From IMG/VR virus record IMGVR_UViG_3300046616_000110, positions 1 to 55,414 of that record: a stretch of 55,414 nt of DNA. The stretch is one strand, 5' to 3'. A program made the translations under genes and the position numbers. The stretch comes from a virus. Positions 32,633 through 50,077 of this stretch are shown in pieces; position 1 is the first letter of the stretch; every line of letters begins with the position of its first letter. Under the pieces are notes generated by a model. The model had not been told where the DNA came from. It saw only the letters and a list, made by a program, of their open reading frames with translations, and did not search any database.

Positions 32633-32881
32633 TTAGTTGGTTCGGCTGGCTCGGGACTTCGATACGGACCTGATCTCAGGCCAGATGTCCATCCAGTCAG
32701 AACGGAGGTCGCGTCGCGTTACGGCGCCCTCCGTGTACTTCTCGATCAGCACACACCTTGCGGGTGAGATCGCGGCATCGCCAGCGGCCATCTGCGAAAG
32801 GAACGACGGTGACACTTCAAGTTGAGCAGCAAGCCGAGCCGACGAGCCACGCTCTGCACTTAGGTAATCGCGAAGCTTCAT
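32633..32881 (-). CDS. Cro / YdaS-like transcriptional regulator
   Basis: The 82-residue protein is a YdaS-type HTH: MKLRDYLSAERGSSARLAAQ, LEVSPSFLSQMAAG (recognition helix), then ISPARCVLIEKYTEGAVTRR with the WMDIWPE end typical of YdaS. It is divergent from the repressor gene, so it takes the Cro role at the lytic switch and is the first gene of the minus early operon. Confidence 0.9.
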   Translation of the reverse strand: MKLRDYLSAERGSSARLAAQLEVSPSFLSQMAAGDAAISPARCVLIEKYTEGAVTRRDLRSDWMDIWPEIRSVSKSRASRTN

Positions 32882-32911
32882 TTGGCCTCTCTAAAAGAAA
32901 TAACTTAACGT

Positions 32912-32929
32912 GTTTAGAGAACTCTAAAC
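32912..32929. promoter_or_regulatory. Repressor operator O1 over the minus early promoter
   Basis: A palindrome with exact 8-base arms, GTTTAGAG-AA-CTCTAAAC, overlaps the -10 of the minus promoter. It is probably bound by the CI-like or Cro-like protein. Confidence 0.75.
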
Positions 32930-32949
32930 CAGAGGGCGCGCAAAGTCAA
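32921..32949 (-). promoter_or_regulatory. Minus early promoter (PR-like)
   Basis: On the minus strand TTGACT (32949-32944) and TAGAGT (32926-32921) stand 17 bases apart, 40 bases before the Cro-like ATG. The -10 lies within operator O1, so repressor binding would block it. Confidence 0.72.
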
Positions 32950-32953
32950 GGAT

Positions 32954-32982
32954 TTGCTTGTTTAGGGAATTCTAATCAGAAT
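32954..32982 (+). promoter_or_regulatory. Repressor maintenance promoter (PRM-like), leaderless
   Basis: TTGCTT (32954-32959) and CAGAAT (32977-32982) are 17 bases apart. The expected start of RNA falls at or next to the repressor ATG at 32989, and no ribosome site is visible. Lambda cI mRNA from PRM is leaderless in the same way. Confidence 0.55.
32960..32977. promoter_or_regulatory. Repressor operator O2
   Basis: GTTTAGGGAATTCTAATC matches O1 at 15 of 18 positions and lies 48 bases away, inside the spacer of the repressor promoter. Confidence 0.65.
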
Positions 32983-32988
32983 ACGCGA

Positions 32989-33375
32989 ATGCAAATTGAA
33001 AACATCCGCCGCGCCAAACTTCGCCTGTGGTTTACTGGGCGCAGCATACCCCCCAAGGAAAAGAGCTACATCTCACAGCTCTTGAAGGAAGGTAACGCTT
33101 TCGGTGAGCGTACCGCGCGTCGCCTGGAAAAAGATTACGGGATGGGAGAGGGGTACTTGGATATGCCAGAAAACGATGAGCAGGACCACCGGCCGGCGCC
33201 TGAGAGTCAACAACATGTGCCCCAGCTGGTTGGCGCCCCGGACTATCTACTCCAGGCCATAAGGCTGCTTGAGTTATTTCACAGCGCCGATGATCGTGGC
33301 CGAGCCGACATGCTCAGGCTTGCCGAGACTTTGTGCGGGCCGAATAACTATCATATTGGAAGCAACAAGAGCTAG
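32989..33375 (+). CDS. CI-like phage repressor, short form without peptidase domain
   Basis: The 128-residue protein starts at 32989 (MQIENIRRAKLRLWFTGRSI). Residues 1-60 look like a lambda-repressor-type HTH (KSYISQLLKEGNAFGERTAR, RLEKDYGMGEGYLDMPE). The remaining 65 residues are a helical tail (PDYLLQAIRLLELFHSADDR) with no Ala-Gly cleavage site and no S24 Ser/Lys pair, so RecA-driven self-cleavage is not expected. It is divergent from the Cro-like gene with operators between. Its 3' end overlaps an antisense small gene by about 100 bases. Confidence 0.82.
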   Translation: MQIENIRRAKLRLWFTGRSIPPKEKSYISQLLKEGNAFGERTARRLEKDYGMGEGYLDMPENDEQDHRPAPESQQHVPQLVGAPDYLLQAIRLLELFHSADDRGRADMLRLAETLCGPNNYHIGSNKS

Positions 33376-34074: not shown

Positions 34075-34094
34075 TACTGTATATATGAACAGTA
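34075..34094. promoter_or_regulatory. LexA (SOS) box in the immunity region
   Basis: TACTGTATATATGAACAGTA has both conserved halves (TACTGT and ACAGTA) and the CTG-N10-CAG spacing of the LexA consensus, with an A+T-rich centre. No gene starts close downstream on either strand. Confidence 0.82.
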
Positions 34095-44153: not shown

Positions 44154-44462
44154 ATGGACATCGAGAAGATTAAAGGGCTGGCATTGGTGGCACAAGACGG
44201 TAGCAATCCCGACAGGAGCACGCGGGCATTCTCTGACTTCTTGGGCATGGTATCTAACCCCGCTACTGTGCTTGAACTGATTGCCGAAGTCGAGCGCAAA
44301 GATGATGAGCTTGCGCGCCTGCGCGACTGGTTTGAGTCTCAGCGCAAGGCCATCAGCAAGGGCGCTGGGAGCACTTGGGATATGTGCCAGTGCTCCGATC
44401 AGACCGAGCGCATCGACGCAGCTATTGCTGCGCACAGCAAAGCCGGGAAGGAGCCGGCATGA
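44154..44462 (+). CDS. Phage protein of unknown function
   Basis: The 102-residue protein (MDIEKIKGLALVAQDGSNPD) has a helical AELxAEVERKDDELARLRDW-like segment. It lies eight bases after the methyltransferase gene. Not recognised. Confidence 0.65.
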   Translation: MDIEKIKGLALVAQDGSNPDRSTRAFSDFLGMVSNPATVLELIAEVERKDDELARLRDWFESQRKAISKGAGSTWDMCQCSDQTERIDAAIAAHSKAGKEPA

Positions 44463-44500
44463 ATGTCGTAACCAGCGGACTGAGCAACAAAGGAGAAATG

Positions 44501-44704
44501 ATGAATACCCCTCGACGCTTCCTGCGCATGCCCGATGTGATCAAGCTGGTCGGCATCGGTCGCACGGTCATCTACGAGCGCATCAAGAAAGGAACCTTTC
44601 CGGCGCCGGTGCAAATTGGCCCCCGCGCGGTCGCCTGGGACGAAGCAGACCTGGCAAACTGGCAGCAAAGCCTGCCCCGCGGCGTCAAGTCCGAACCAAT
44701 TTAG
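44501..44704 (+). CDS. AlpA-like excisionase
   Basis: The 67-residue protein starts at 44501, where AGGAG is 5 bases upstream. Starts at 44498 and 44459 are possible. It is an AlpA / MerR-type winged HTH: FLRMPDVIKLVGIGRTVIYE, RIKKGTFPAPVQIGPRAVAW, DEADLANWQQ. AlpA proteins act as recombination directionality factors or activate int. Its position directly before the integrase supports excision control. Confidence 0.88.
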   Translation: MNTPRRFLRMPDVIKLVGIGRTVIYERIKKGTFPAPVQIGPRAVAWDEADLANWQQSLPRGVKSEPI

Positions 44705-44921
44705 TGACGTGGGTAGGAATGGGGGTAGACGAGAAAAACCCATCTATTCTCATAGGAGAGATGGAAGGCGAGGACATCCTTCACACCGATGTCCGGCATC
44801 GTCCGCGTACGTCCGTATCTCCTTGATTTTTATAGGATTGTGGCCTAATCTTTGTCCGGTTGAGTTCGGCATAATCCGGTACAATCCGCTATCGGCTTGT
44901 GGGTAGAAACGGGGGTAGGAT
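44705..44921. other. Candidate attP region with arm-type and phased repeats
   Basis: This 217-base stretch between excisionase and integrase has no gene. The 20-base sequence GTGGGTAGGAATGGGGGTAG at 44709-44728 recurs at 44899-44918 with 18 matches. GTCCG occurs three times at a spacing of exactly 10 bases (44791, 44801, 44811), and AATCCG twice at 10 bases (44873, 44883). GGGGGTA-type repeats before P4-type integrases are usual near att sites. The core crossover cannot be found without the host junction. Confidence 0.55.
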
Positions 44922-46160
44922 TTGGCGAGGACGATTGAGAAACTGAGCGCGCTGGCAGTGAGCCGTGCAAAAGAGCCGGGCTATTACAGCGACGGCGGTG
45001 GTCTTTACTTGCAAGTGTCTCGTTCCGGCACGAAGAGCTGGATCTTCCGGTACACCCTCAACAAGAAATCGCGCGAGATGGGCCTCGGGTCGCTGCACAC
45101 GATTACGTTGGCGCAAGCGCGCGAACAGGCCAGGTCTTGCCGCGCCGCCCTGCTAGAGGGAGTGGACCCGCTAGAGACCCGTAATGCGGCAAAGCTGGGC
45201 CTTGCACTCGAGCGCGCGAAGACGGTGACGTTTGACGACTGCGCCGCACAGTATATCGCAGCGCATCGGAGCAGCTGGAAACGAGAGCAGCACGCGCTGC
45301 ATTGGGAGCGATCGATCACGAACCATGCGAGCGCGATCATCGGCGACATACCTGTGTCCGCGATCGACACGGCGCTGATCGTGAAGGTTCTGCAGCCGAT
45401 CTGGGGAACGAAGACCGAGACGGCCAGCAAGCTGCGAGGCAGGATCGAAAGCATCTTGGACTGGGCGACGGTAAGCCATTTCCGCTCGGGGGAAAACCCC
45501 GCGCGCTGGAAAGGACATCTCGATCACCTGCTGGCGGATCCCGGCAAGGTCGCTAGGGTAACGCATTACGCTGCCCTACCCTGGCAAGAAGTCGGCGAGT
45601 TCATGGCCTCGCTTCGCCAGTGCAGGGGTGTAGCAGCTCGCGCCCTGGAATTCGGCATTTTGACGGCGGCCCGATCGGGAGAGGTGCGCGGAGCACGATG
45701 GGAGGAAATCGACTTGGATGCCGCAATCTGGACGGTGCCGGCGGAGCGGATGAAAGCCGGGCGCGAGCATCGCGTGCCGCTTTCGACAGCAGCCATCGCG
45801 CTGCTCAAGTCTATGCCTCGGGTCGAGGACTTGGTGTTCCCGGGGATGAAGAAGAACGTCGGCCTGTCGGACATGACCATCACTGCAGTCCTGAAGCGCA
45901 TGGGCCGCGGCGACATCACTGTGCACGGGTTTCGGTCGACCTTTCGCGACTGGTGCGCCGAGTCGGCGGCAAATTCATTCCCGCGCGAGGTGTGCGAGCA
46001 CGCGCTGGCTCACCGCATTCCCGACAAGGTCGAGGCAGCCTACCGCCGCGGCGACCTCATCGAGAAGAGGAAAGTACTAATGCAGGTGTGGGCGGACTAC
46101 TGCGCGAAGATCCCCGCCTCTGCCGAGGTGACAGCAATTCGGCTGACCGGCTCGGCCTGA
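44922..46160 (+). CDS. int: P4-type tyrosine integrase
   Basis: The 412-residue protein starts with TTG at 44922 behind GTAGGA. It has the DUF4102 arm-binding domain (YYSDGGGLYLQVSRSGTKSW and GSLHTITLAQAREQA), a SAM-like core domain, and the catalytic domain. The first Arg is in TAARSGEVRGARWEEIDLD, then GRGDITVHGFRSTFRDW (HxxR), and ALAHRIPDKVEAAYRRGD (H and the Tyr nucleophile). It integrates and excises the phage. Its last 64 bases overlap the end of the convergent imuA. Confidence 0.95.
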   Translation: MARTIEKLSALAVSRAKEPGYYSDGGGLYLQVSRSGTKSWIFRYTLNKKSREMGLGSLHTITLAQAREQARSCRAALLEGVDPLETRNAAKLGLALERAKTVTFDDCAAQYIAAHRSSWKREQHALHWERSITNHASAIIGDIPVSAIDTALIVKVLQPIWGTKTETASKLRGRIESILDWATVSHFRSGENPARWKGHLDHLLADPGKVARVTHYAALPWQEVGEFMASLRQCRGVAARALEFGILTAARSGEVRGARWEEIDLDAAIWTVPAERMKAGREHRVPLSTAAIALLKSMPRVEDLVFPGMKKNVGLSDMTITAVLKRMGRGDITVHGFRSTFRDWCAESAANSFPREVCEHALAHRIPDKVEAAYRRGDLIEKRKVLMQVWADYCAKIPASAEVTAIRLTGSA

Positions 46161-46831
46161 CGCTGCCTCTGCGGAACAAACGTCGACACCGACATAGGCA
46201 GGAAGATCGGCTCCTCACGCTGAGGCCCTGCCCTTTTCACCACTCCGACATTGATCCCGCCCGGTGCCGGTCGCACACTCAGCCGCAAAGGCGCTGGCGA
46301 TGCGTCCTGCTCAGCTGCCAGATGACGGAAGTTGAAGAACAGCGTCTCGCCCTGCTGGGCCGCTAGGTGCAAGCGTCTCAGACTCTCAGCGCGAACTGGC
46401 TGCTGCCTCGCGTTGGAGCTCGACGTTAGGCCGGGCCAAAACAGCAAGGCGCCACAGCTTCCACTGCGGAGCACCTGCTCGGCGGCCCAAAGGGCGTCCG
46501 CGGTGCGTTCCGAGCGTATCCATAAGATCGACTCTAGAGGCAGTCCAAGCGCCGCCAGGGACAGCGCCTGGGGAGCGTGCGGCGGCTGTAACAAGACGAC
46601 TTTGCGCGCCGTCACCTTTGCCAGCGCAGGCGCAATCAGCCGCATCTCTCCTATTCCCGGCTGCTGCACCAACAGGTCGACAAGCGTACCGACAGGCCAG
46701 CCGCCGCCGGGGAGTTGATGCGACAACGTCGGATGCCCGGTGTCGATGCAGCGCGTATGGCTGCGGGCGAGCTGAGACGCTCGCCAAAGCGAAGGGTGAA
46801 GCTCTTCCAATGATGGGGCCGAATCTGGCAT
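46097..46831 (-). CDS. imuA: ImuA translesion-synthesis factor (SulA/RecA-like)
   Basis: The 244-residue protein is full length for ImuA: LWRASQLARSHTRCIDTGHP, LSHQLPGGGWPVGTLVDLLV, QPGIGEMRLIAPALA, LGLPLESILWIRSERTADAL and WAAEQVLRSGSCGALLFW match the family. ImuA binds RecA and supports the ImuB-DnaE2 mutasome in SOS mutagenesis. Neither imuB nor dnaE2 is here, so it must work with host partners or modulate them. A LexA box lies 17 bases before its ATG. It converges with int and the ends overlap. It may be cargo beside the attachment site. Confidence 0.9.
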   Translation of the reverse strand: MPDSAPSLEELHPSLWRASQLARSHTRCIDTGHPTLSHQLPGGGWPVGTLVDLLVQQPGIGEMRLIAPALAKVTARKVVLLQPPHAPQALSLAALGLPLESILWIRSERTADALWAAEQVLRSGSCGALLFWPGLTSSSNARQQPVRAESLRRLHLAAQQGETLFFNFRHLAAEQDASPAPLRLSVRPAPGGINVGVVKRAGPQREEPIFLPMSVSTFVPQRQRQAEPVSRIAVTSAEAGIFAQ

Positions 46832-46847
46832 TTTTGACGCTCTGAAA

Positions 46848-46867
46848 TACTGTGGTTATATCCAGTA
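46848..46867. promoter_or_regulatory. LexA (SOS) box before imuA
   Basis: TACTGTGGTTATATCCAGTA matches the LexA consensus at both ends (TACTGT and CAGTA) with CTG-N10-CAG spacing. It lies between divergent imuA and the small plus gene at 46936, so it may control both. Confidence 0.8.
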
Positions 46868-46935: not shown

Positions 46936-47151
46936 ATGAACGCTGACCGCCCAAACCGCACCCTCTCATCCGATGTGGAATTAGCGCTGATCCTCGCTGA
47001 GCGAGTGGGCGTACAGGTCGCTGCACGCTTCCTGACGAAGCGCGGGGCTGGTTTTGCGCTTACTTGTCGCGTGCTGGGGGATCCGGATCGACGAAGAGTG
47101 AATCCTGAGCAGTTGAACGTCGATGTGCCCGACCCGCTTCAAACCGTATAG
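46936..47151 (+). CDS. Small protein divergent from imuA, unknown
   Basis: The 71-residue protein begins MNADRPNRTLSSDVELALIL and has VQVAARFLTKRGAGFALTCR, which looks like one compact helical unit. It is the only plus-strand gene between int and the late lysis genes and lies next to the LexA box, so it may be SOS-linked cargo. It overlaps the convergent metallophosphoesterase gene by 13 bases. No family is recognised. Confidence 0.6.
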   Translation: MNADRPNRTLSSDVELALILAERVGVQVAARFLTKRGAGFALTCRVLGDPDRRRVNPEQLNVDVPDPLQTV

Positions 47152-48365
47152 ACCTCACGCGACTCAGGTGCGGCGATGCAAGCCCGGCCCAGTCTGGCGC
47201 GCACCTCCTGGATCGGCAACACTCGCCGCCCGACTTCGCCGTACGACTTGGAGCGCAGCACAATCGTGATGGACTTGCGATTCCGATAGCCGGCATCGTG
47301 CGCCCACTTGTCCAGCGCCGCTAGGTGGTTGAACGACTCCACGAAAATTCCAGGGTGCTCCTTCATCACCATGCCGTGGTGCACGTGGCCGACGTCGACA
47401 TAATGGAATTCGGTCTCGCCGTAGTCCTTGCGGTAATCGTTGGTCATGACGTGAGCGAGTTGCGACGGTTTGCACTTGTCCGAGTGGTGCGTCATCACCA
47501 AGGTATTGCCCATCCGGTAGGCGATGAATACAGAGTCGTTGTTCAGCACATGGACCCGCCCAGTGTGCCCGTACGCCACCCGCAAAAGCTCCGCCATCCA
47601 GATATCGTTCGTGCGGCTGTGGTTCCCTTGATTGACGATGACATCGACGTGCCTAGCTTTAGTCAACGCCTTCTCGACGATGAAGCGCATCACCCGCGAG
47701 TAGACCTTGATCATCTTCGGGAAGCGAGTGTCGCAGTCGAGTCTATGTTTGCTGGCTTGAGTTTCCCCTTCGAAATTCTCGTAATGGGTTGCATCACCGA
47801 GGTCATTGATCACCAGGCGCTCGCAGGACGGCAGTTCGTCGATCAGGATGCCGATCGCGGCGCATAGCTCCTGCTCCGCGATCTTGAGGTCGAAGTGTTC
47901 GCCTACCTCGTTGGCATGGGCCAGCATGCCCAGGTGCGCGTCGCCGATTTGGATCCACGGAATGACGTCGGACTGAAAGTCGAGCGGCGCCGGCGGCGCA
48001 TTGATCTGCCCCACATCTTCGATGAAGCCCTCAATCGCCTCGCGGATCAGCTCGCGCTGCATCTCTGGATCGACGGCGGACTTGACCCACTGCCCGGTCG
48101 GCGCGCCGTCCTTGTTGTAGTAGGTCGAGACACCTTTCGCCAGGAAGCCGATCGGCACGGCGCGTGTCATATCGTGGTCTGGAGAATAACCGCGCCGCGC
48201 TGCCGACACCTTCAGCCGCTCGATAGCTTGCTGCACACTACTCTTGGATAAGCCCAGCTCGCGCGCTGCGGCTCGCATGCTCCCGAGTCGGTTTGCCGCC
48301 TCGATATACTGTTCCTGCCGCGGGGTCGGATCGAATTCGAGCAGCTTAGGGTCGATGATGGTCAT
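47139..48365 (-). CDS. HTH-metallophosphoesterase
   Basis: The 408-residue protein starts at 48365 (MTIIDPKLLEFDPTPRQEQY), overlapping the o-spanin stop by 4 bases. An HTH is at about 17-50 (GSMRAAARELGLSKSSVQQA). The calcineurin-like fold shows IGDAHLGM (GDxH), INDLGDATHYENF (GD), VNQGNHSRTND (GNH), VMTHHSDK and VDVGHVHHG (GHxH), so all metal ligands seem present. It may be a sequence-directed nuclease or phosphodiesterase. It is the last gene of the late operon, behind the lysis genes. Confidence 0.85.
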   Translation of the reverse strand: MTIIDPKLLEFDPTPRQEQYIEAANRLGSMRAAARELGLSKSSVQQAIERLKVSAARRGYSPDHDMTRAVPIGFLAKGVSTYYNKDGAPTGQWVKSAVDPEMQRELIREAIEGFIEDVGQINAPPAPLDFQSDVIPWIQIGDAHLGMLAHANEVGEHFDLKIAEQELCAAIGILIDELPSCERLVINDLGDATHYENFEGETQASKHRLDCDTRFPKMIKVYSRVMRFIVEKALTKARHVDVIVNQGNHSRTNDIWMAELLRVAYGHTGRVHVLNNDSVFIAYRMGNTLVMTHHSDKCKPSQLAHVMTNDYRKDYGETEFHYVDVGHVHHGMVMKEHPGIFVESFNHLAALDKWAHDAGYRNRKSITIVLRSKSYGEVGRRVLPIQEVRARLGRACIAAPESREVYTV

Positions 48366-48682
48366 TTGCTCTCCGGTGCAGGTTGCGGCCAAGCTTCGAT
48401 CGAAGTACGTTTTTCGCTGCCGAACTTTTCAGTTTTCGGCCGACAGCCGGCCATCGCCGCCTCGAGCCCGGTCGAATAGACCTCCCATGCCGCCGAGTCC
48501 TGCAGGGCGATCTGAGCGGCGGCCTTATCGCCCGGGTAGGCACCAACGCCATAGCGGTTCGCTGGTCGCGCCGGTACCTCACCTAAGCAGCCGACTGCGA
48601 CCGGAACCTGTATCGTCTCGGGTGCCGGCTTGGTCGTGGCGCAGCCGGTCAGCAGCAGCGCGCAGAGGATAAACACTCTCAT
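48362..48682 (-). CDS. Outer-membrane spanin lipoprotein (Rz1-like)
   Basis: The 106-residue protein starts at 48682 (MRVFILCALLLTGCATTKPA), overlapping the Rz-like stop as ATGA. LLTGC is a lipobox. The mature part is Pro-rich at first and then helical with a Cys near AMAGC. With the Rz-like protein it would bridge the envelope and disrupt the outer membrane at lysis. It is longer than lambda Rz1 (60). Confidence 0.85.
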   Translation of the reverse strand: MRVFILCALLLTGCATTKPAPETIQVPVAVGCLGEVPARPANRYGVGAYPGDKAAAQIALQDSAAWEVYSTGLEAAMAGCRPKTEKFGSEKRTSIEAWPQPAPESK

Positions 48683-49044
48683 TGCCATGCTCCCCACGCC
48701 TCGCGCAGCACGCCGTCGCAATTCGTAGCGCCGCTACCGGCAACCGCGGCAACTCGCTTGTCGATGCCTTTGATGACCACCGCGGCGTGCTTCTCGGCCT
48801 GTTTGCGTAGTTCGTCGGCGCTCTGAGCCGCAGAGTTCAGCGTGGCGATCGCCTGGTTCTGCTCGCGCACCTTGTCTAGCAGGGCGTCGTATTCCTGCTG
48901 CTTGACCGCCAGCTCTTTCAGGTGAGCGCGCTCCAGCCTCCAGCCATTGACCATGGCCCCGGCAAGTGCCGACCCGATGATCACGGTTAGAGCGAAGACG
49001 GCCCCGGCCAGCAGCCGATATGGCGATGGGATTGGGTCAATCAT
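48679..49044 (-). CDS. Inner-membrane spanin (Rz-like)
   Basis: The 121-residue protein has an N-terminal membrane anchor (LLAGAVFALTVIIGSALAGA), then a periplasmic coiled coil (LKELAVKQQEYDALLDKVRE, QNQAIATLNSAAQSADELRK) and a C-terminal Cys/Trp end. This is the i-spanin layout. It overlaps the holin-like gene before it and the o-spanin behind it. Confidence 0.87.
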   Translation of the reverse strand: MIDPIPSPYRLLAGAVFALTVIIGSALAGAMVNGWRLERAHLKELAVKQQEYDALLDKVREQNQAIATLNSAAQSADELRKQAEKHAAVVIKGIDKRVAAVAGSGATNCDGVLREAWGAWQ

Positions 49045-49322
49045 GGTTGCGGCTCTTGGGGTGGAGGTGGCGGAGCGGCGTCTGCGCGCATGAGGGACTT
49101 GGCGCCGACCGAGGCGGCGAGTGTCCCGGTGACCTCAATCATTTGGCGAACGTAATCACCAAGCACGGACATATCGATGTGGATCGAGCCGACCGCTACA
49201 CCGATAGCGGCGGCGATGTGATAGATCGACACGGCCACGGCGCCAAGAATGCGCACTGGGCAGAGTGTGGAATTATTCGCCTCCGTCAGCATTTGAGCGA
49301 ATATCTTGCGAAGCCAATTCAT
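49041..49322 (-). CDS. Second holin-like membrane protein
   Basis: The 93-residue protein has one clear membrane helix (CPVRILGAVAVSIYHIAAAI) and a second weak hydrophobic stretch (QMIEVTGTLAASVGAKSL), ending in a Pro-rich tail. Its position between endolysin and spanins suggests a holin, antiholin or pinholin. The exact role is not clear. Confidence 0.68.
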   Translation of the reverse strand: MNWLRKIFAQMLTEANNSTLCPVRILGAVAVSIYHIAAAIGVAVGSIHIDMSVLGDYVRQMIEVTGTLAASVGAKSLMRADAAPPPPPQEPQP

Positions 49323-49325
49323 GGT

Positions 49326-49889
49326 TCACCCCTTCAAGACACGTAGCGCAGTTGCATACAAGGCGATTCGCTCCTGCAGCCCATTCGCACCGCCGTTGAC
49401 CGCCCGGGTTACGCGCACCTGGTCGCCCGTATCGGCAATCGCGTTGATGCCGCGCGAGGTCCAATACCAGCCAGCCGAGCGGCAGGCATTGGTCGGCGTC
49501 TCCAGCAGCTCGGGGCTATGCAGCAGACGGTCGTCTCCGAACAGGGCGTAGCTGCAGGCGCGGAAGTTATCTTTTCCTGTGATTTGCAGAAGTCCGCGCC
49601 CCTTGTACTTCTGGCCGTCACCGTCCTTGTCCGTGGTGTTGCCGAGCTTTTCCGCAACACGCCCGGTGTCGTAAGCCTCGCCACTTGCCAGCTCGAGCAC
49701 GTAGCGCAACTGGCCAGACTCGACGCCGACCTGCGCCAGGAACGAAGCTTGCCGTTCCGCGGTGTTGATCTGGGCTTCGTCCATCGTGGCATTCAGACCA
49801 TCGAGGTAGCGCGCCGCGCGGTTACGTCCATACGGGTAGATCCGCACCAGCTGTTCCAGAGTCAAACCAGCGCCGCTTAGGGCCATCAT
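49326..49889 (-). CDS. Endolysin, GH19 chitinase-like muramidase
   Basis: The 187-residue protein starts at 49889 behind GGAGGAG, overlapping the holin stop as ATGA. It matches GH19 lysins: RQASFLAQVGVESGQLRYVL (catalytic Glu in VGVESG), KYKGRGLLQITGKDNFRACS (GRGxxQxTG), and ACRSAGWYWTSRGINAIADT then VTRAVNGGANGLQER. No signal peptide is seen, so it needs the holin. Confidence 0.94.
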   Translation of the reverse strand: MMALSGAGLTLEQLVRIYPYGRNRAARYLDGLNATMDEAQINTAERQASFLAQVGVESGQLRYVLELASGEAYDTGRVAEKLGNTTDKDGDGQKYKGRGLLQITGKDNFRACSYALFGDDRLLHSPELLETPTNACRSAGWYWTSRGINAIADTGDQVRVTRAVNGGANGLQERIALYATALRVLKG

Positions 49890-50077
49890 TGCTCCTCCTT
49901 CTTCGACTTGCGGTCGCGGCGCGATTTCATGGGTGCCGAGTGGTAGAACTGGAACGCAATCCAGAGGATTGAGGCCAACGCCGCCATCGGTGGAAGCACA
50001 TTGGCAAACCACCCCACGATGGTGAAGGTGGCAGCTACCGTTGAGCCGGCGTCGAAGATGTGTTTGATGTGGTCCAT
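49886..50077 (-). CDS. Class II (T7-like) holin
   Basis: The 63-residue protein has two short hydrophobic segments (TVAATFTIVGWFANVLPPMA and LASILWIAFQFYHS) and a highly charged C-terminal tail (KSRRDRKSKKEEQ), the layout of T7-type holins. It opens the inner membrane for the endolysin encoded next. Confidence 0.84.
   Translation of the reverse strand: MDHIKHIFDAGSTVAATFTIVGWFANVLPPMAALASILWIAFQFYHSAPMKSRRDRKSKKEEQ

Follow-up and report, generated by a model that had tools for sequence, protein, structure and literature searches.

We propose, with about even confidence, that the imuA gene of temperate Massilia phages is a long-established, selected accessory ('moron') gene supplying an extra SOS-controlled ImuA, which would act on the ImuB and DnaE2 of the host through its docking face. 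In bacteria, imuA is one of three genes for copying past DNA damage and for mutation under stress. Here it sits beside the integrase of a phage that has neither imuB nor dnaE2, with a LexA-type operator upstream. The phage copies have a single origin and are under selection, and the hosts have imuA-imuB of their own (and dnaE2 where it was searched for).

A lone imuA next to a phage integrase

The window (the whole stretch of DNA analyzed, 55,414 bases) is a linear IMG/VR virus record, IMGVR_UViG_3300046616_000110. Its structural genes encode terminase, portal, major head, tape measure, and tail proteins, and it also encodes an endolysin, a DnaB helicase, a Bet/RecT annealing protein, an exonuclease, and NinB. 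With repressor-like genes, AlpA, and a P4-like tyrosine integrase, it unites integrase, repressor region, structural genes, and lysis genes in one genome, as expected of a temperate phage. Minus-strand late genes continue through both ends of the record, and a tail gene stays open across the junction of these ends, in frame, without a stop, and with consecutive profile positions on either side. The in-frame reading of this gene across the two ends is most simply explained if the record is a phage genome that is complete and circularly permuted. The features discussed below are as follows.

32633..33375, strand not given: immunity region with repressor-like genes (phrog_35 and phrog_5736)
44459..44704, plus: AlpA-type regulator (PF05930 on the overlapping ORF 44375–44704)
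44765..44779, plus: candidate attP core AAGGCGAGGACATCC, 15 bp, 5′ of int, common to the window, L044, L045, and L070
44922..46160, plus: tyrosine integrase with P4-like arm-binding domain (Pfam Arm-DNA-bind_3, Phage_int_M, Phage_integrase)
46831..46097, minus: phage imuA, complete, 244 codons (NF033429 match, RecA fold, phage-only clade)
46436..46525, minus: imuA codons 103–132, aligned to the RecA segment that docks the neighbor's N-terminal motif (RecA-NT)
46406..46435, minus: imuA codons 133–142, insertion of about 10 aa at the RecA loop L1 position
46850..46865, minus: LexA-box-like operator CTGGATATAACCACAG (CTG-N10-CAG), 34 bp 5′ of the imuA ATG
46936..47151, plus: small ORF of 71 aa, divergent from imuA and sharing its operator region
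47139..48365, minus: DNA-repair-exonuclease-like protein (phrog_704), the last late gene before imuA
48679..50012, minus: lysis module of endolysin and small membrane proteins (phrog_181 endolysin for 49326–50012)

The imuA product matches the NCBIfam ImuA family NF033429 with 215 bits (curated cut-off, 150 bits) over model positions 1–181 of 181. The gene is the last on the minus strand, after the lysis genes and the phrog_704 exonuclease and before the integrase, which is convergent with it and shares 64 bp with its 3′ end. A tblastn search with ImuB found no match in the window, and dnaE2 is likewise absent from it, the only ORFs long enough being the tape measure gene and the tail gene that spans the two ends of the record; the cluster is not an ImuA-ImuB-DnaE2 cassette. 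Family score, operator, tblastn, and ORF lengths together bear out the sequence-only reading, which had described a full-length imuA with a LexA-type box beside int and without imuB or dnaE2. The same reading had considered that imuA might be a host fragment joined by assembly error. This is refuted, because imuA has phage genes to its left and right, the reading frame of the tail gene continues from one record end to the other, and the arrangement recurs in dozens of independent contigs.

The operator lies inside TACTG...CAGTA. A CTG-N10-CAG sequence is found just upstream of imuA in all 44 phage loci and in 78 of 79 chromosomal loci, and the perfect form CTGTN8ACAG, for which shuffling gives an expectation of about 0.001 per locus, stands at the same place in 43 of the 44 phage copies. 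The window is the sole exception: its CTGT half-site is altered (CTGG...ACAG), a point against the explanation that we prefer. As in the LexA regulon, an operator is present at the promoter, with one mismatch in the window; because of this mismatch to CTGTN8ACAG, LexA control of the window's own copy is likely rather than certain, and its operator may be bound more weakly than the perfect form. A scan for sigma-70 promoters found nothing.

A perfect CTGTN8ACAG (CTGTATATATGAACAG) also occurs at 34077–34092 in the immunity region of the window, next to GTTTAGAATCCTAAAC-type repeats, and host LexA may thus have a part in controlling lysogeny. We did not use this second SOS box as evidence, since a single 8-base match of this kind in each window is close to what chance gives.

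The small divergent ORF is present in 37 of the 44 imuA phage loci, carries a motif like 'GVPxxxxxRVLxxPxxRR', and has no Pfam match. We considered and rejected it as a dedicated partner of imuA: it also occurs in eight loci of integrase relatives that lack imuA and is therefore a general gene of the slot.

Occurrence, ancestry, and selection of phage imuA

Scanning IMG/VR with the ImuA protein recovered 42 other loci, and an alignment query added seven more from the same clade, one of them truncated, giving about 49 other IMG/VR contigs with imuA and no imuB; the 50,697 phage records of INPHARED held no match. Chromosomal loci nearly always have imuB immediately after imuA, but it is absent from all 44 phage loci studied in detail. 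Sixty of 62 Massilia genomes have imuA, and seven of the 62 carry prophage copies without imuB (eight copies, all of the phage clade); one further genome has a lone imuA on a plasmid. A chromosomal imuA-imuB pair is present in all eight genomes with an extra copy (seven prophage, one plasmid), and in the host of the prophage L070, DnaE2 scores above cut-off on the same contig as that host's own imuA.

Three contigs with imuA were not counted as phage. L216 (80 kb) and L217 (279 kb), both labeled viral, have a lone, LexA-boxed imuA of Burkholderiaceae type in the vicinity of ParA/ParB and of a gene resembling DNA ligase; the ParA/ParB genes give them the look of plasmids, which they probably are. 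On L218, imuA is followed by a dnaE2-like ORF.

A first tree of 44 phage and 78 host ImuA sequences resolves one phage clade (SH-aLRT 98). In a careful tree that includes prophage and plasmid copies, this clade is supported at 96/90 (UFBoot/SH-aLRT), and its grouping with the Massilia plasmid copy as sister at 99/99. Against a host sample made up of the 80 closest genome loci, the phage clade stands apart from every chromosomal imuA. The single clade suggests that the gene was captured once, long ago, from an Oxalobacteraceae-like ancestor and then passed among phages whose integrases differ.

Across 929 pairs of phage copies, dN/dS has a median of 0.21 and a maximum of 0.43; between the window and its nearest relative, dN is 0.13 and dS 0.98. 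By these ratios phage imuA is under purifying selection and not a passenger. That the host keeps an imuA copy of its own would suit a neutral passenger or an assembly artefact, but we judge either very improbable: dN/dS among close pairs is 0.04–0.25, the operator is kept, the copies form one old clade that recurs in dozens of contigs, and disrupted copies are rare, with only L264 (viral) and L209 (genomic) truncated.

The imuA slot and the attachment site

With few exceptions, the phage loci have imuA flanked by lysis or exonuclease genes on one side and by the integrase or provirus end on the other. By sequence, the integrases beside it fall into at least five clusters (Pfam confirmed four representatives in addition to the window's type), and imuA is therefore not tied to one attachment site. 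The slot itself is variable, and phages that have the window's integrase type and no imuA hold other genes there.

In four of these relatives the slot is occupied by a family of about 100 residues (L045 4169–4483, L056 1102–1419, L065 7457–7744, L068 1521–1820). A LexA-like box is present at three of the four loci, and the L065 member has no Pfam match. Its sequence setting suggests that this family is another SOS accessory gene of the imuA slot.

The attachment site bears on a further proposal of the sequence-only reading, namely integration of the phage in host imuA, with the phage copy restoring the operon. Mapping gave a candidate attP: AAGGCGAGGACATCC marks the point at which phage homology stops and host DNA begins, and because it lies 5′ of int, attP and imuA are on opposite sides of int. 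The host side is less firm, for AAGGCGAGGACATCC matched once more, in apparently coding DNA of G005, and the site showed no tRNA; attB is therefore tentative. The closest prophage, L070, in a Massilia MAG, has the order tail, lysis, imuA, one ORF, and int, then host DNA just 5′ of int; it ends directly after the stop codon of an unrelated host gene. A different contig of that host (L078) holds an intact imuA-imuB. Further prophages are likewise inserted at other places, the one in G030, for example, adjoining murI. Integration in host imuA would fit a gene that adjoins int and overlaps its 3′ end, and several proviruses do end shortly past imuA. The relatives nevertheless speak against it: in none of these tests does attachment fall within imuA or interrupt the host gene, attP lies away from imuA, L070 and G030 lie beside other genes, seven lysogen genomes keep an intact imuA-imuB, and the same imuA clade occurs with different integrase kinds. 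We reject the proposal for the relatives and regard it as the least credible of all the readings considered here.

The ImuA protein and its possible roles

The predicted structure of the window's ImuA (mean pLDDT 76.5, pTM 0.73) has RecA as its best PDB matches (E 4e-12, TM 0.6). Where RecA has its Walker A stretch the phage protein reads QQPGIGEMR and lacks the motif, as does the proteobacterial ImuA1 group (PMC12926913), to which it conforms. Codons 103–132, the segment aligned to the RecA-NT docking region, are better conserved among phage copies than any other stretch (mean identity 0.86); phage-host identity is 0.77 in this segment vs 0.69–0.76 in the rest of the core, a modest rise. Docking of ImuA on ImuB through RecA-NT is experimental in mycobacteria (PMC11791113), and by analogy codons 103–132 are the expected ImuB-binding face. 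The L1/L2-like loops are altered in phage copies, most of which, including the window's, have the insertion of 9–10 residues at the L1 position that nearly all host ImuA proteins are without. The C-tail is 0.29 identical among phage copies and 0.17 between phage and host; in hosts, where the end of the gene overlaps imuB, it is conserved, and in phages it is free to drift.

An effect of the phage gene on mutagenesis or on RecA is plausible because a lone, SOS-boxed imuA with a conserved docking surface is carried in hosts that have both partners. We infer SOS induction, docking on host ImuB, and an effect on DnaE2 mutagenesis in the following order. DNA damage would lead to cleavage of host LexA, and the lysogen would then make phage ImuA on top of host ImuA. 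The phage protein, an inactive RecA-like protein, would dock on the RecA-NT motif of host ImuB and feed the host ImuB-DnaE2 mutasome. The outcome would be that the lysogen and the replicating phage DNA tolerate more damage and mutate more. Host imuA already has an SOS box of its own; a further copy may thus have no effect on mutagenesis, or it may compete.

The docking face would fit the RecA N-terminal motif just as well, which counts against the ImuB reading. A role on RecA is the main rival because this face would accept RecA and because M. xanthus ImuA has been reported to bind and inhibit RecA (Sheng 2021, as described in PMC11791113). Phage ImuA might bind the RecA N-terminal motif of the host and shorten or cap its filaments, which we rate as possible though doubtful; as a tentative consequence, recombination, LexA cleavage, and prophage induction would be damped, or the phage's own Bet/RecT-type recombination would be favored. 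The RecA-like fold and the retained docking segment agree with such a role, as do the phage's own annealing protein, exonuclease, and NinB, and it would need no partner gene. Yet M. xanthus ImuA falls in the Walker-motif-bearing ImuA3 group, unlike phage ImuA (PMC12926913), and no sequence feature singles out RecA over ImuB. A related and similarly tentative account is that phage ImuA has left the DnaE2 mutasome and, under SOS, targets host RecA (or blocks ImuB), tuning induction, recombination, or host mutation, with the L1-position loop and the changed L2-like segment as adaptations.

Roles as a decoy or as a SulA-like protein are less likely than the mutasome and RecA readings. As a decoy, phage ImuA would compete with host ImuA for ImuB without being competent itself, lowering mutagenesis in the lysogen and protecting the prophage. 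The kept docking face, together with a C-tail (0.17 phage-host identity) and loops that differ from those of host ImuA, would suit this, but the overlap of host imuA with imuB may explain why the C-tail is conserved there and has drifted in phages without functional change, and the whole core is under purifying selection; we think a decoy unlikely. An SOS-induced block of cell division during prophage induction is more improbable still. ImuA is related to SulA, the window's protein has weak NCBIfam SulA matches of 19 bits, and SulA PA3008 appears in the search of solved structures (E 0.015); those 19 bits, however, are far below the curated SulA cut-offs (150–162) and the ImuA score of 215.

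Among known systems, bacteriophage P1 HumD, a UmuD' homologue, is a lone phage-encoded SOS mutagenesis accessory thought to work with host partners; it belongs to the UmuD family and Pol V, not to ImuA and ImuB-DnaE2. The chromosomal imuA-imuB(-dnaE2) cassette shares with the phage gene the ImuA family, the inactive RecA-like fold, and a LexA operator at the same place, whereas the phage gene differs in having no cassette partners, in belonging to a separate clade, in usually carrying the L1-position insertion, and in its drifted C-tail. Mobile SOS mutagenesis genes are also known as imuABC cassettes on the Cupriavidus taiwanensis symbiotic plasmid (PMC4151985) and on ICEPni2 (PMC7466150), but these carry the polymerase and ImuB, and the phage has imuA alone. 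Closest in form is the imuA of a Massilia putida 6NM-7 plasmid (NZ_CP019036), which is lone, has a LexA box, and is sister to the phage clade; it differs in being on a mobilizable plasmid, behind a 115-codon ORF and next to Tn3 genes. On this plasmid (L215 4608–5711), LexA box, 115-codon ORF, and lone imuA form one likely operon.

Among the papers listed by searches of the open-license full-text literature for imuA with phage, prophage, and viral genomes, none describes a lone imuA that forms a clade in phages. The new part is this phage-borne clade, single SOS accessories being known in other phage families and complete imu cassettes on plasmids and ICEs. If our proposal is true, prophages widely carry one subunit of a host mutagenesis system under the host's own damage switch, and a soil genus owes part of its evolvability and damage tolerance to its prophages. 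Phage imuA would also be a natural experiment on ImuA function away from its operon partners.

A separate rearrangement was seen in Massilia sp. Root133 (L115, 219–10678; G003:C35:274777-310349), where host imuA is split and its 3′ piece lies about 35 kb away. The order, read from the sequence, is the 5′ part of imuA, a Tn7-like tnsA/B/C and tniQ/tnsD-type set, and a divergent imuA-imuB; this looks like a Tn7-like element inserted in imuA and carrying its own imuAB.
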